Shown in pieces: positions 32,755 to 40,356 of a stretch of 40,356 nt of DNA. Source of the stretch: a virus. Where the stretch lies: positions 1 through 40,356 of the IMG/VR virus record IMGVR_UViG_3300008470_000181; one strand, given 5' to 3'. Both the position numbers and the translations under genes were made by a program. Under the pieces are notes generated by a model. The model had not been told where the DNA came from and did no database searches. It was given only the letters and a program-made list of their open reading frames with translations. Each line of letters opens with the position of its first letter. Position 1 is the first letter of the stretch.

Positions 32755-32907
32755 ATGAAAAAAATAATATGTAAAATATTTGGACATAAGTGGATGTGCA
32801 TAATGAGGCGCAATTACAAGGATGAATACACTGAACAATACTCAGCTGTATCAACCCATAAATGCACGAGATGTACTCGGCATATATACGAAGAATGGAA
32901 CGCTTAA
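32755..32907 (+). CDS. Zinc-ribbon peptide, DUF1660-like
   Basis: 50 aa: KKIICKIFGHKWMC then KCTRCTR. The M-K-K-x-x-C-x-x-F-G-H-K-W start with a later CxxC is the signature I recall for phage DUF1660 proteins, likely one zinc site (C6, H11 or C15, C37, C40). It starts 17 nt after hairpin 8 and ends 16 nt before the RadC-like ATG. Confidence 0.65.
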   Translation: MKKIICKIFGHKWMCIMRRNYKDEYTEQYSAVSTHKCTRCTRHIYEEWNA

Positions 32908-32923
32908 CTTTAAACTAAAAACT

Positions 32924-33370
32924 ATGGAATTAAAATCATTTGCTAAAGAACTGGAAGCAGTATACACTACGAAAGATGATGTACATAGGATGAAGATAGG
33001 TTCTTCTCAAGCTTTAAGTGAATTTGTAAGGAAAGTATTTCCGGTACAAATAGATTACAGAGAAGCCTTTATGTGTGTATATCTAAATACAGCTAACAAT
33101 ACTATTGGTTTTACAATAGTTGGATTAGGAGGTCTAACAGGAACTATTGCAGACCCTAAGACTGTATTTCAACATGGTTTATTGTGTAATGCAAGAAGTG
33201 TAATACTTGTACTTAATCATCCATCAGGTAATTTAAAGCCAAGTCAATCTGATATTAATCTTACTAATAAAATGATAGATTGTGGAAAGTTACTTGATAT
33301 TACAGTACTTGATCACTTAATAATAACAGAAGAAAGTTTTTTTAGCTTTACTGATGAAGGATTAATTTAA
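32924..33370 (+). CDS. radC-like: RadC/JAMM-like protein with altered metal site
   Basis: 148 aa from the ATG at 32924; a longer frame from 32822 overlaps the zinc-ribbon gene and is not preferred. RadC family core: YREAFMCVYLNT (E47), then VLNHPSGNLKPSQSDINLT with H99, S107 and D110. The usual family motif is HNHPSG; here the first His is Leu (L97), so one zinc ligand of the JAMM metallopeptidase site is lost. RadC proteins are anti-restriction or DNA-repair associated, and JAMM folds also act as deubiquitinase-like enzymes. Because the phage has a PRTRC operon 2.2 kb downstream, it may act with that system, but catalysis is doubtful. Confidence 0.8.
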   Translation: MELKSFAKELEAVYTTKDDVHRMKIGSSQALSEFVRKVFPVQIDYREAFMCVYLNTANNTIGFTIVGLGGLTGTIADPKTVFQHGLLCNARSVILVLNHPSGNLKPSQSDINLTNKMIDCGKLLDITVLDHLIITEESFFSFTDEGLI

Positions 33371-35596: not shown

Positions 35597-36295
35597 ATGA
35601 AAACAAATATTTTCGCTACCATAGCGCCATTTCTTGGCTCTATGAATTTAACACTAACGGTTGCTAAAGGTTCAGGAGATACTGTAATAGTATCATTGTT
35701 ACCACAACCAAGAATTAAAGACAATGCTAAAGATAGTGTACAGCCAATGGTTATTAGAGGTACTATTAAGGAACTTGACGAAGAGTTTTTCAATGCTATT
35801 AAAGAACCAATGACTAAAGTTACAGGTATTGTTATTGAAATTGATAATTTTGAAAAAGGTGCTGATAAATTAGCAGAAGATAACAAAGCTAAAGATGCTA
35901 TTAAAGCTGAAGCTAAGAAGAATAAAGATAAAGCTGATAAGATTGTAAGAAAAGCTGAAGATTTATTTGAAGCTAAAGAATTAGATAAAGCTGAAAAAGA
36001 ATTAGCTAAAGCTATTGTTCTTACTCCAGGTACTCCAGCTATAAACAAGCTATCTAATAGCATTAAAGATGCTAAAGAAGCATTAAAGCCTAAAGACCAA
36101 GTAGATATTTTTTCAGCTATTGAAGAAGTAAAGGAACAACTACCTGAATCTCCTAATAAATTAGAAATAGAAAACAATCGTATTGTTCATTCTAATCCAA
36201 TGAGTGAGGCAGAGATAGAAGTATTACAAGATGAGTTAGACGATAAAGCTAACTTCCAAGTTGAATCAGTAAACAATTTTTATTATGAATCTTGA
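35597..36295 (+). CDS. PRTRC system protein E
   Basis: 232 aa. The N-terminal domain (MKTNIFATIAPFLGSMNLTL, SGDTVIVSLLPQPRIKD, MVIRGTIKELDEEFFNAIKE) matches the PRTRC-E pattern as I recall it (TIGR03741): a beta-rich start, then LPxPR-KD and the TxxELDEEF helix. The middle (about 90-150) is Lys/Ala/Glu-rich coiled helix, the end acidic. First gene of the PRTRC operon; its stop overlaps the PRTRC-C start by 11 nt. Molecular role in the system is unknown. Confidence 0.8.
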   Translation: MKTNIFATIAPFLGSMNLTLTVAKGSGDTVIVSLLPQPRIKDNAKDSVQPMVIRGTIKELDEEFFNAIKEPMTKVTGIVIEIDNFEKGADKLAEDNKAKDAIKAEAKKNKDKADKIVRKAEDLFEAKELDKAEKELAKAIVLTPGTPAINKLSNSIKDAKEALKPKDQVDIFSAIEEVKEQLPESPNKLEIENNRIVHSNPMSEAEIEVLQDELDDKANFQVESVNNFYYES

Positions 36296-36494
36296 AGCTA
36301 AAACACTAAAAAGAGTATTCAAATACGGAAAACTTACATTATCAGATCCAGACCCAATTATGGGACCTAAAGATGTAATGCAATTTTATTCAGGACAATA
36401 TCCCGAATTGACTAATGCATCACTTGAAGGCCCATCTATTGAAAATGATGAGATAGTATTTGAATTTGGTAAAACTGTTGGTGTAAAAGGGTAA
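36285..36494 (+). CDS. PRTRC system protein C, prokaryotic ubiquitin-like
   Basis: 69 aa, the family's usual size. KRVFKYGKLTLSDPDPIMGP, DVMQFYSGQYPELTNAS, and EFGKTVGVKG match PRTRC-C (TIGR03738; Prok_Ub fold by established classification). In ubiquitin-like systems the modifier ends in glycine for activation by an E1; this protein ends VGVKG, so the C-terminal Gly is already exposed. Coupled by overlap to E and to the following ORF (TAATG). Modifier function is an inference from family and neighbours. Confidence 0.85.
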   Translation: MNLEAKTLKRVFKYGKLTLSDPDPIMGPKDVMQFYSGQYPELTNASLEGPSIENDEIVFEFGKTVGVKG

Positions 36495-36691
36495 TGGATA
36501 ATAACTTAAACATTATAGACCAATTATGCAAACAGGAATTACAGCCGTTAAAAGGAGAGAAATTGGAAAGTTTCCATCAATCTCTAGGGAGGGTATTGGC
36601 ACAAGAGAGGGAATTTATGTACCTCGTGAACCAAAACGAACCCCAAGAAAGGCAGTTGATACAGTCAAATCAAATAGACCACATTCCTTAG
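36494..36691 (+). CDS. 65-aa ORF overlapping the PRTRC F start
   Basis: ATG coupled by TAATG to PRTRC-C. Protein-like, Gln/Glu-rich helices (NLNIIDQLCKQELQPLKGEK; FMYLVNQNEPQERQLIQSNQ). It overlaps the first 55 codons of the 409-aa ORF in another frame. Either a separate small protein, or the true N-terminus of the F-like protein joined by a -1 shift; in that case its stop (TAG 36689) is where the F frame begins to look protein-like (LDKKEFYNELC). Confidence 0.4.
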   Translation: MDNNLNIIDQLCKQELQPLKGEKLESFHQSLGRVLAQEREFMYLVNQNEPQERQLIQSNQIDHIP

Positions 36692-37755
36692 ATAAGAAAG
36701 AGTTTTACAATGAATTATGCGTACAGTTGAAGCAAGGTAGCTTCGATGTACGCAATAATTTTGTAGCTAACCTATACAAGTGCTTAAAGAATCATCCTGA
36801 TTATCAGAATGACTTAATATTCACTCAAGATATGGAAGTTAACAAAATTGTATCTCTTATAAGGAATAAGATAAATGATTTGCTACCAGAAAACTGCAAT
36901 ACAACTATTGATGTTGATAGGTATGGAGATAATACCATTAGTGTATCATCACATATAGAGCAAGATTTACTCTCTTCTCAAAATGCAATGCCATTAAAAT
37001 GGTTATTGAAATTGAAACGAGAGAATCCTAAGCTGTTTGTTATAGTTAGAAATGTAATATCACTAATCAAAGGAAAGTATAAGATAGATGGACCCGATGA
37101 TGGATTTGCAGAAATGGCTAAAGAATATTTTTTATCAGGATTCATGGAGAATGAAGATGAAGATGAAAATGACTTTAAACACTATTCAAAAGATTTCTTT
37201 GAGCATTGCTCTAAGGAAGAAGTAATGCAACTTCAATCATATTATGACAACAAGTTCTTATGTGAAGTAAAAGCAAAAGATGGTGTCGGACATCTCCTTT
37301 TAGATGAGATAAACGATATCTATAAAATGATTGATGAAGATTGGTTAATGAATCAGATAAACACCTATAACCCAAGAAACGAAATGTATAAAACATTACT
37401 TGATTGGGCTAAACAGGGTATGAATCTATACTTTAATCATAATAATGTAGTTCTTTCTGATATAATTTTTGTAACAGAAGAAGAGTTAGAATGTGGCACA
37501 CCAGTAACAGCAATGGATTTCCTCAAGTTTGAGTGGAATTTTAATTGTGAATATTGGGAACAAGGAATTGAAATGGCTCTTAATGAGCATGCAGGTCAAT
37601 TTGGAGTTATTGAACCACGAAACTTTATTATACTACAAGAAGATAACTACATCAATCATTTTGACGAGAAATATGAGTTATTCGGGAAAGAGCTTGAACA
37701 TTGGTTTGACACCGGTACTGATATTTATCATAAACAAATATGTGAGTGGGAATAA
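36526..37755 (+). CDS. Putative PRTRC system protein F
   Basis: 409 aa from the only upstream ATG, but the first 50 residues are basic and low in order (KRREIGKFPSISREGIGTRE), unlike the acidic rest, so the start is doubtful. Body: LDKKEFYNELCVQLKQGSFD; MPLKWLLKLKRENPKLFVIV; many Glu/Asp-rich helices with Tyr/Phe; end HWFDTGTDIYHKQICEWE. It is in the slot occupied by PRTRC-F between C and B, and of about the right size. No enzyme motif seen; function of F is not known. Confidence 0.6.
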   Translation: MQTGITAVKRREIGKFPSISREGIGTREGIYVPREPKRTPRKAVDTVKSNRPHSLDKKEFYNELCVQLKQGSFDVRNNFVANLYKCLKNHPDYQNDLIFTQDMEVNKIVSLIRNKINDLLPENCNTTIDVDRYGDNTISVSSHIEQDLLSSQNAMPLKWLLKLKRENPKLFVIVRNVISLIKGKYKIDGPDDGFAEMAKEYFLSGFMENEDEDENDFKHYSKDFFEHCSKEEVMQLQSYYDNKFLCEVKAKDGVGHLLLDEINDIYKMIDEDWLMNQINTYNPRNEMYKTLLDWAKQGMNLYFNHNNVVLSDIIFVTEEELECGTPVTAMDFLKFEWNFNCEYWEQGIEMALNEHAGQFGVIEPRNFIILQEDNYINHFDEKYELFGKELEHWFDTGTDIYHKQICEWE

Positions 37756-37757
37756 TT

Positions 37758-38450
37758 ATGGAAATACAAGAAAAATTATACAAACCCGTACAGTTTATAA
37801 CAGTTCATAGGTCAGGAGATTCTTATTATTTGGAGTCAGGGAACATTAATGATGATTTGTCTTTCGGGGCAAGTCATCCATTGATGAAACAAACTATCGT
37901 TGATATAATGGACACTATGTCTGTTGACGTTACCGATAGGCTTCAATTTAAAGGAATGATACCTAAGAATGTTGTTACTGTAAGAAATACTGCTGGAAAC
38001 ACTTTAGTCGCTTGGATAAGCAAACCACAATCAGTAAAAATGTCTTTTACAAAGACTGTTGGTTTGCGTGATATGACGGCTCCTGTTCCTGCTATGCTTT
38101 GGTTGGCTAAAAACGACCATTTATCGGTATTTGCTTTAAAGAGTAATACCATAAACAATAAGACTAAACTATATGTTGCACCATTTCCTAATGTTAGTGG
38201 AAGTGGTTCAGTATGTTGGGGTAGTGGTAAATGGCCAAAAGATGTTCAGTACTATGAAGATTTCATAGAAAAAGTTGAATATGGATTTTGGAATAGTAAA
38301 TTTAGTCACAATATGGAAGGAGTAGTAAGTAAGTCTAAATCTGACTTATATAGATTATGGGATGCCCTTAATGGAGCACCATTTTTTCCTACTCAACAAC
38401 TATTGGAGAGTCCAGAAAGTAATAAAATTAAAGAAAAATTAGGAGTATGA
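37758..38450 (+). CDS. PRTRC system protein B (E2-like)
   Basis: 230 aa from the ATG at 37758 (a GTG 12 nt earlier is in frame). LQFKGMIPKNVVTVRN, TVGLRDMTAPVPAMLWLAKN, DHLSVFALKSN and PFPNVSGSGSVCWGSGKWPK are the core of PRTRC-B (TIGR03737), assigned to a prokaryotic E2-like fold (Prok-E2_D). The single Cys in SGSVCWGS (C153) is where a thioester Cys could be; this is a guess from conservation. Follows F and overlaps the next small gene by ATGA. Confidence 0.85.
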   Translation: MEIQEKLYKPVQFITVHRSGDSYYLESGNINDDLSFGASHPLMKQTIVDIMDTMSVDVTDRLQFKGMIPKNVVTVRNTAGNTLVAWISKPQSVKMSFTKTVGLRDMTAPVPAMLWLAKNDHLSVFALKSNTINNKTKLYVAPFPNVSGSGSVCWGSGKWPKDVQYYEDFIEKVEYGFWNSKFSHNMEGVVSKSKSDLYRLWDALNGAPFFPTQQLLESPESNKIKEKLGV

Positions 38451-38653
38451 AAGAATATAAAGTAGGAAGCGACTATAGGTATTCACAAATACCTGAGAAC
38501 AGTACAGATGATTTAGAGGTAAACGATTATGGCTCTGAACATTTAGGACAGAATGCAATTCACTTAAGATACCATAAAACAGAAACAGATGTTTGGTTTA
38601 TATGGGATGGACAAGCTAATGAAGGTATTTTAAAATGTGTATATAATAAATGA
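38447..38653 (+). CDS. Small acidic protein inside the PRTRC operon
   Basis: 68 aa (YKVGSDYRYSQIPENSTDDL; LRYHKTETDVWFIWDGQANE). It overlaps its neighbours by ATGA on both sides, so it is translated with B and the ThiF gene. Not one of the named PRTRC proteins I know; could be an operon-specific partner. Confidence 0.6.
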   Translation: MKEYKVGSDYRYSQIPENSTDDLEVNDYGSEHLGQNAIHLRYHKTETDVWFIWDGQANEGILKCVYNK

Positions 38654-39414
38654 AACAGAAGATACACTATACTCCTGACTACTTAATTAACACACCTCAT
38701 CCAATTACAGTTAATGTGATAGGAGCAGGTGGTAATGGTTCACAAGTAGTTCAAGGATTAGCAAGAATGCACGTTACTCTACAAGCATTAGGTAAACCGG
38801 GCTTATTAGTCTGTTTATATGATGATGATAAAGTAACAGAAGCGAATCAAGGTAGGCAACTATTCTCCCAAACAGATATTGGAAGATATAAAGCTGAGGT
38901 CTTGATTACAAGAATCAATAGATTCTATGGTACTGGTTGGTTAAATGAGAATTGTAAGTATAATTACAAGCAATACTCATCTACTAATATCGTAATAAGT
39001 TGTGTTGATACAGCTTCTGCAAGACAGAAAATATCACATGTTTGGAAAGATAAGAAAACCTTAAAAGATTGGGAAGTTCCTTATTATTGGTTAGACTTAG
39101 GTAATTCTGCTAAATCAGGACAAGTTATACTTGGTAGTTCAGGAAGTACTGAACAACCAAAGTCTAAAAAATTTGATACAGTAAGAAAATTACCCACAGT
39201 AGATAAAGAATTTGACTTAAAGAGTATTAAGGATGATAATGAACCAAGTTGTTCTATAGCAGAAGCTATCGAGAAACAAGACTTGTTTATTAATCCTATT
39301 GTTTCATATATGGGGTTAAACCTATTATGGAAAGTTCTTAAAGACTATTCTATAGTACATAGAGGATATTACATAAATTTAGAAACAGGAAAAACAAATC
39401 CAATAGGATTGTAA
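38650..39414 (+). CDS. PRTRC system ThiF-family protein (E1-like)
   Basis: 254 aa. Adenylating Rossmann fold: VNVIGAGGNGSQVVQGLARM with the glycine loop at 25-30, acidic DDD58-60 at the second strand end, N66 to R69 (NQGRQ), K81, and D120 in SCVDTASARQ. Near the end is PSCSIAEAIEKQDLFINPIV with C201, a conserved-looking Cys and the best candidate for a thioester. Length matches PRTRC ThiF proteins (TIGR03736). It would adenylate the C-terminal Gly of PRTRC-C; that activity is inferred. Last PRTRC gene before dnaB. Confidence 0.88.
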   Translation: MKQKIHYTPDYLINTPHPITVNVIGAGGNGSQVVQGLARMHVTLQALGKPGLLVCLYDDDKVTEANQGRQLFSQTDIGRYKAEVLITRINRFYGTGWLNENCKYNYKQYSSTNIVISCVDTASARQKISHVWKDKKTLKDWEVPYYWLDLGNSAKSGQVILGSSGSTEQPKSKKFDTVRKLPTVDKEFDLKSIKDDNEPSCSIAEAIEKQDLFINPIVSYMGLNLLWKVLKDYSIVHRGYYINLETGKTNPIGL

Positions 39415-39465: not shown

Positions 39466-40356
39466 ATGAGTGAACAATTAGATTTTTTTACAGAGAGTAA
39501 CTTTATTGGACAATCAAATGTCGATTTAGAAGAAATTGTACTTGCTACTTTTATTAATTTTCCAGATACTTATTATCAGGTCGCAGACCAACTAAGTATT
39601 CATGAATTTTCTACAATAGAATGTAAGTACATCTACAGTGCGGTAAGAGAGTTATCAAATGACTCAAAAGTTGATATAGTTCTGGTAACAGACTATTTAG
39701 TAAGTAAAAAATATGTTGACTATGTAATGAAAAAAAAGATAGGGTTTGATCTAATCGTTCATCTTAATGAAATATGTGAACGTATTGACAATGATGAGCA
39801 CCTACTTGAGCATATTAAATTACTTAATGGATATGCAAGACGTAGAGCCTTAATGCTACTATCAGATAAAGTAAATGAAAGTTGTAATGATATGATTGAC
39901 CCTATGTTAATTCTTGGTTCTATATCTGAAAAGATAATTGAGATTCAAGAAATGGGAGAAGTTGAAGAATTTGACGTTAATAAAGCCTTAGATAAAGCTA
40001 TTGATTATCAAGATAATCAAGATACAACACATTTTATTAAATCTTATCTTACTGAACTTGACTTACATATTACAGGATTCGAGCCTCATGATTTAGTAAT
40101 TCTTGCAGCAGCTCCATCTATGGGTAAAACTTCATTAGCACTTGAAATATTCAAGAACAACATCCTTAGTGGTGTTCGTGTAGCTATGTTTTCTTTAGAA
40201 ATGAGTGAAACTGCATTAATAAACAGAATTATTGCTTCAGATGCTTTTATTCCATTAAAAAGTATAAGAAATAAGTGTATGTCTCATAAGAATTATCAAA
40301 TGAGAGATGCAACTAAAGAAAAATTAGCTCAAGAAAGATGGTGGATTGATGATAAA
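39466..40356 (+). CDS. dnaB: Replicative DNA helicase, DnaB type (3' end outside window)
   Basis: 297 codons, cut at the right edge. The N-terminal primase-interacting helical domain (about 1-165: VDLEEIVLATFINFPDTYYQ, IHEFSTIECKYIYSAVRE) and then the RecA-like ATPase: Walker A AAAPSMGKTSL at 214-224 (K221, T222) and the next strand MFSLEMS at 241-247 with E245. The start follows hairpin 11 and an A/T leader. Marks the beginning of the replication genes. Confidence 0.92.
   Translation, partial: MSEQLDFFTESNFIGQSNVDLEEIVLATFINFPDTYYQVADQLSIHEFSTIECKYIYSAVRELSNDSKVDIVLVTDYLVSKKYVDYVMKKKIGFDLIVHLNEICERIDNDEHLLEHIKLLNGYARRRALMLLSDKVNESCNDMIDPMLILGSISEKIIEIQEMGEVEEFDVNKALDKAIDYQDNQDTTHFIKSYLTELDLHITGFEPHDLVILAAAPSMGKTSLALEIFKNNILSGVRVAMFSLEMSETALINRIIASDAFIPLKSIRNKCMSHKNYQMRDATKEKLAQERWWIDDK

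Follow-up and report, generated by a model that had tools for sequence, protein, structure and literature searches.

A PRTRC-type operon, with what appears to be a full set of ubiquitin-like tag, activating enzyme and transfer enzyme, was identified in a divergent crAss-like phage of gut-type bacteria, where it lies directly in front of the replicative helicase gene dnaB. The operon occupies positions 35597-39414 on the + strand of a 40,356-nucleotide (nt) stretch of viral DNA (IMG/VR record IMGVR_UViG_3300008470_000181; hereafter the window). We tentatively favour its interpretation as a dedicated ubiquitin-like conjugation cascade within the phage replication module, with replication proteins as the likeliest targets, while the enzyme classes themselves are well supported. 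On the + strand, the gene order is E, C (ubiquitin-like), a small open reading frame (ORF), an ORF in the F position, B (E2-like), a second small ORF, ThiF (E1-like) and dnaB. The ORFs of the operon were found where an original prediction had placed them, overlapping head to tail with shared stop/start junctions, and dnaB (39466-40356, + strand, cut by the window end; DnaB families) follows ThiF directly, as had also been predicted.

Hidden Markov model (HMM) searches confirmed the proposed PRTRC family membership of three proteins by curated-model cut-offs: protein E (35597-36295, 232 aa; TIGR03741, 52.5 bits with a cut-off of 37.95; PF19556, 100.4 with a cut-off of 26), the ubiquitin-like protein C (36285-36494, 69 aa; TIGR03738, 78.5 bits with a cut-off of 45.95; PF14454 Prok_Ub, 89.3 with a cut-off of 25) and the E1-like adenylating enzyme ThiF (38650-39414, 254 aa; TIGR03736, 245.8 bits with a cut-off of 144.75). 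For protein B (37758-38450, 230 aa, with a possible alternative GTG start at 37746), the E2-like assignment held in Pfam (PF14460 Prok-E2_D, 109.9 bits with a cut-off of 25), but not with the PRTRC model TIGR03737, whose score of 96.3 was under the cut-off of 131.45. The label “F-like” was retained for the F-position protein (36526-37755, 409 aa) by virtue of its position and its membership of a Bacteroidota F-position family spanning 101 loci, but TIGR03742 had no match either in the protein or in a six-frame search at E ≤ 10. A weak profile link to proteobacterial F proteins was detected (pairwise E 0.001, probability 22%), and this protein was rejected as PRTRC_F or as a known E3 for want of an HMM or fold match.

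The residues needed for a thioester relay are strongly conserved. G25, R69, K81, D120 and Cys201 of ThiF (Cys201 codon at 39250-39252) are present in nearly all of 185 homologues, and the nearest solved sequences to the window E1 are the NEDD8 and ubiquitin E1s, then Cap2. The putative catalytic Cys153 of B (38214-38216) corresponds to a Cys that is invariant in relatives (179/179), with a downstream His in 170 of these 179 proteins, and the B stretch PFPNVSGSGSVCWG is similar to the E2 signature HPN...C. Protein C ends in GVKG at its stop codon (Gly69 codon at 36489-36491), and its terminal Gly is found in 160/161 relatives, with conservation ceasing after this residue. The Cys and downstream His of B also fit the E2-family description given by Iyer, Burroughs and Aravind in 2006 (PMC1779556).

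The minus strand of the window encodes TerL, portal and major capsid proteins, and its TerL is about 25-28% identical to those of Crassvirales. These virion genes and the Crassvirales-related TerL confirm the predicted carriage by a crAss-like phage, of a divergent kind. The operon recurs in a 69-kb IMG/VR relative, whose ThiF is 78% and whose TerL is 95% identical to those of the window, so the linkage between operon and phage is not an assembly accident. PRTRC operons also recur in unrelated phage groups: relatives of the window ThiF are encoded in 95 viral contigs, a search with two Pfam families located a terminase or portal gene in 15 of 39 tested contigs (13 above cut-off), a contig with dnaN beside its operon (L099) has a crAss-type TerL, and the isolated Burkholderia phage BgVeeders33 encodes an entire operon, protein A included, next to a complete set of virion genes. 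The earlier statement that plasmids and integrative elements are the main known carriers of the cassette is accurate for the literature found, but many viral contigs and an isolated phage have the operon as well.

As predicted, ParB and A are missing: neither the window nor the 69-kb relative matched the ParB model TIGR03734 or the A model TIGR03735 (DUF2016 + JAB; none of the control genomes provided a positive control for this search), and there is no space for an A gene between B and ThiF in the window. We compared about 190 PRTRC-type operons, which have two layouts. The order E-C-F-B-A-ThiF, often after ParB, is found in many proteobacterial operons, both plasmid- and phage-borne, whereas the Bacteroidota operons and the window clade have E-C-F-B-ThiF; A is also missing in some gammaproteobacterial plasmids and one Pelobacter plasmid. 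The window belongs to the Bacteroidota A-less PRTRC-type operons, a group defined in this analysis (clade support 100/99), as it has the order E-C-F-B-ThiF, no A, a C protein ending at its terminal Gly and a ThiF within the Bacteroidota clade. The suggestion of a reduced form was not supported: operons without A and ParB are standard in Bacteroidota, the window operon retains its catalytic residues, and it is not degenerate.

The comparison set also revealed an association between A and the C terminus of the tag. A combines DUF2016 with Prok-JAB, a JAMM protease of the deubiquitinase fold, and the JAMM motif was present in 59/59 A proteins. The end of C could be read in 162 operons, of which 45 have both A and a tail past the Gly, nine have A and no tail, 108 have neither, and none has a tail without A. 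The Fisher p value is 5e-6 across 35 ThiF clusters (60% identity), a figure that ignores deeper relatedness. Tails comprise at least 10 residues in 41/45 cases and reach about 100, and while C is near-invariant up to the Gly, there is no consensus beyond it, where the tails form eight groups without detectable mutual similarity. Mapped on the ThiF tree, there are at least three changes in A and about seven in the tail, and the tail changes all fall on branches with A. A further 38 viral loci, three of which repeat earlier contigs, formed a second set that was scored with models frozen beforehand, and its only tails (GTKGR, three loci) all occur with A. Cyanobacterial plasmids with a JAB gene feature C proteins that run past the Gly; the extension is 2 aa long in Oscillatoria but amounts to a whole domain in Nostoc, where the fused C-terminal domain resembles the separate next gene in Oscillatoria (L184:2836-3284, L185:2605-3042).

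These patterns support a role for A as a tag-maturation protease, and they lend weight to the prediction by Iyer et al. (PMC1779556) that the JAB protein processes and removes the tag. As tails occur only with A, the window C appears to be encoded in its mature form, and an operon without A is what would be expected. Several further features of the tag genes were observed. In Burkholderia-type phage contigs (L123-L170), tails are mostly 60-100 aa, fall into several unrelated groups and directly follow a near-invariant RRAVGTKG. In two A-less loci (L174, 3316-3519, and L197), C ends in TKA in place of TKG, and L086 is truncated at this end. A cGAS-like and SAVED gene pair adjoins the Oscillatoria plasmid operon.

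Replication genes are frequent neighbours of these operons. In all seven window-clade loci, dnaB comes right after ThiF, and DnaB neighbours occur in seven ThiF clusters. In eight viral contigs and one genome (L099:5764-6879, L100:6319-7446, L102, L103:6197-7342, L104:1404-2537, L112:5944-7227, L114:5194-6498, L120:5462-6802 and L047), a dnaN gene precedes E by about 8-110 nt, and this group spans nine ThiF clusters. Pfam verified six of the seven of these clamps that were tested, with L114 below cut-off; those of L112 and L120 feature a cysteine-rich N-terminal extension. The clamp gene also adjoins the operon on Sutcliffiella and Aeromonas plasmids (L186, L188) and in L009 shares 4 nt with ThiF, while an ssb-like gene, named from its sequence, is upstream in 41 loci from 18 ThiF clusters. 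In the second set, dnaN shortly precedes E in three loci (L197, L200 and L215) and dnaB is at most 3 kb downstream in seven (L200, L215, L218, L219, L220, L222 and L224). This linkage is only suggestive, because such genes often neighbour cargo on mobile replicons, although the immediate same-strand adjacency of dnaN and E, seen in several lineages, is more specific.

Based on these data, ThiF would adenylate the C-terminal Gly of C, hold C as a thioester on Cys201 and pass it to Cys153 of B, which would then attach it to a lysine of target proteins. We consider this relay and conjugation probable. The likeliest targets would be phage or host replication or recombination proteins of the clamp, helicase or SSB class, an assignment that is more tentative than the cascade reading as a whole, and E and the F-position protein may provide target or E3-like specificity. 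In relatives with A, the JAMM protease would trim the C precursor of its tail and might additionally strip C from its targets. The phage C would be encoded mature, and since the phage has no dedicated A, the modification could be long-lasting or reversed by another enzyme. The original prediction had suggested tagging during replication or counter-defence; the former, as we infer it, is best supported by genomic context, while nothing was found in favour of the latter. In a wider and rather speculative extension, which we consider unlikely, PRTRC would be a prokaryotic counterpart of the ubiquitin/SUMO control of PCNA, with C conjugated to the replisome (DnaN, helicase or SSB) and steering replication or recombination, and A responsible for both maturation and removal of the tag, which the branch without A (Bacteroidota and phage) would encode in mature form.

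A number of results weigh against a conjugation cascade directed at replication proteins. The C terminus of the tag is KG rather than GG. Although the AlphaFold2 model of B is confident (pLDDT 91), Foldseek found no significant match to an E2 or to any other structure in the PDB; the E2 fold is therefore not confirmed by structure, and B was dropped as a structurally proven E2. The model of the F-position protein is mostly helical (pLDDT 80) with a disordered N-terminus (residues 1-66 below 50), and it also lacks a significant Foldseek match in the PDB. No dnaN was found in the window-clade contigs examined, and replication genes are common neighbours of any phage or plasmid cargo. Both A and the tail are clustered on the tree, where an independent-pairs (sign) test is underpowered (p 0.5-1). 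Finally, E contains a beta-clamp-binding-like QVDIF motif, but enrichment of clamp motifs in E is weak (21/156 versus about 8 expected), so a role for E as a clamp-binding adaptor via QxxLF was kept as a lead only.

Four other explanations were considered and are given here in descending order of likelihood. The phage could tag host or competitor proteins, or disturb host E1/E2 immunity, for defence, counter-defence or superinfection exclusion. The patchy, mobile distribution of the operon would suit such a role, as would weak matches of the ThiF domain to PADLOC E1-E2 and BilD models, and Iyer et al. raised addiction, or a shield from invasive replicons, as speculative roles (PMC1779556). We nevertheless consider it unlikely, given the replication-module position beside dnaB or dnaN in many lineages, the absent or marginal PADLOC matches for the remaining operon proteins and the core-like presence of the same operon type on plasmids, adjoining ParB. 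A sulfur carrier system is less likely again. Here, C would act like ThiS or MoaD and ThiF would make its thiocarboxylate, to the benefit of the phage, for the modification of a nucleotide, tRNA or cofactor, which is compatible with the ThiF/MoeB family membership and with a small beta-grasp protein that has a terminal Gly. Against it stand the invariant Cys of a separate E2-like protein and a JAMM protease that tracks the tag tail; furthermore, C terminates in KG instead of GG and no rhodanese or sulfurtransferase was seen in the operon.

It is improbable that stable conjugation is dispensed with altogether, such that a ThiF-B-C complex assembles or loads replication proteins non-covalently or via transient thioesters: the strictly conserved E1 Cys, E2 Cys and terminal Gly point to covalent transfer, even if the lack of a dedicated deconjugase in the A-less lineage and the fast divergence of the helical F protein would be consistent with this model. 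PRTRC cassettes are common on plasmids and in bacterial genomes, so a bacterial cassette could in principle have been carried by chance or mis-binned with the phage, but this is very improbable when virion genes are on the same 40-kb contig, the 69-kb relative combines the operon with a 95% identical TerL, and an operon of its own lies next to the capsid, portal and tail genes of the complete phage BgVeeders33.

Several gene models in and around the operon were also assessed. The small ORF after C (36494-36691, + strand, 65 aa) has a start that overlaps the C stop, and its frame is kept in the relatives L003 and L004. Where it overlaps the F-position ORF (36526-36691), substitutions between the window and L003 are distributed 16/7/28 at codon positions 1/2/3 of the small-ORF frame. 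As these substitutions track the small-ORF frame and not F, translation of F from the ATG at 36526 is doubtful, and coding is backed only from about 36670-36692 onward. No normal F start codon was seen just past the small ORF (window 36494-36760), and a programmed frameshift or unusual start for F is possible. The second small ORF (38447-38653, + strand, 68 aa), which has weak similarity to DUF7848, is missing from a close relative whose ThiF is 98% identical (L002), and is probably an accessory insertion outside the conserved cassette. Upstream, a RadC-like JAB protein (32822-33370, + strand; PF04002, 9e-35) is a neighbour that is not a confirmed part of the system. In the window, Leu replaces its first JAMM His (LNHPSG), while L003, L004 and L094 keep HNHPSG. 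It was rejected as the missing deconjugase on the basis of this substitution and its distribution, as it occurs in the four longer window-clade contigs but in few other PRTRC loci.

Operons of this type have been known since 2006. In the titles and abstracts of the literature searched, no PRTRC function was described, and no earlier report was found of phage carriage across several lineages, the association between A and tails, or the dnaN/dnaB linkage; most subscription papers lay outside this literature, so priority is uncertain. PRTRC cassettes are widespread across plasmids, bacterial genomes and several unrelated phage groups, and the A-tail rule shows which C proteins are usable directly in experiments. 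Their repeated placement with dnaN, ssb and dnaB provides a testable hypothesis of replisome modification, for which the isolated phage BgVeeders33 is at hand.

Comparison with known systems highlights both shared and distinguishing features. The type 6d operon of Iyer et al. encodes a Ub-like protein, a JAB protein, an E1-like protein, an E2-like protein and an alpha-helical protein; with the exception of the JAB gene, the window has the same components, including a terminal Gly on the Ub-like protein and a downstream His in the E2-like protein. The parts of that paper covered here (PMC1779556) mention neither a correlation between A and tails nor phage carriers of type 6d. CBASS Cap2/Cap3, Bil and related E1-E2 defence systems have the E1-like adenylation domain and the logic of tag transfer in common with the window, where, unlike in Cap2 and Bil, E1 and E2 are separate proteins, the operon has no cGAS or other defence partner, and PADLOC matches are marginal.

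Steigviridae crAss-like phages also have an E1-like gene in the replication module (crAss001 gp77-gp76), but this belongs to a different E1 lineage and is paired with a JAB metalloprotease, with no recognised Prok_Ub or E2. This pair was located at L010:5223-9436 and L190:1567-6050 (crAss001 gp76-gp77, Kolpuevirus), and ThiF of this type is also found in DAC15 and many PhiCrAssBcn phages. The gene before the pair has a faint, non-significant E2-like PCLGSG stretch, and proteins beside JAB-ThiF were rejected as E2 candidates for want of a significant profile match.

The PRTRC system itself (TIGR03734-TIGR03742), exemplified by Cupriavidus plasmid pMOL28, has E, C, B and ThiF in the same order as the window, with an F-position gene between C and B. 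The window differs in lacking ParB, A and a TIGR03742 match, in a B protein under the TIGR03737 cut-off and in being phage-borne beside dnaB. BgVeeders33 (OK665841) features A (DUF2016 + Prok-JAB), a C protein with a 62-aa tail after TKG and Mu-like tail genes, none of which is shared with the window, but its operon is likewise phage-borne and ordered E-C-small ORF-F-B-ThiF. A Tunicatimonas pelagia plasmid (NZ_CP120684), although not a phage and with no dnaB adjoining the operon, has the same A-less E-C-F-B-ThiF arrangement as the window, with a C protein that ends in GIKG and a ThiF that is 45% identical.

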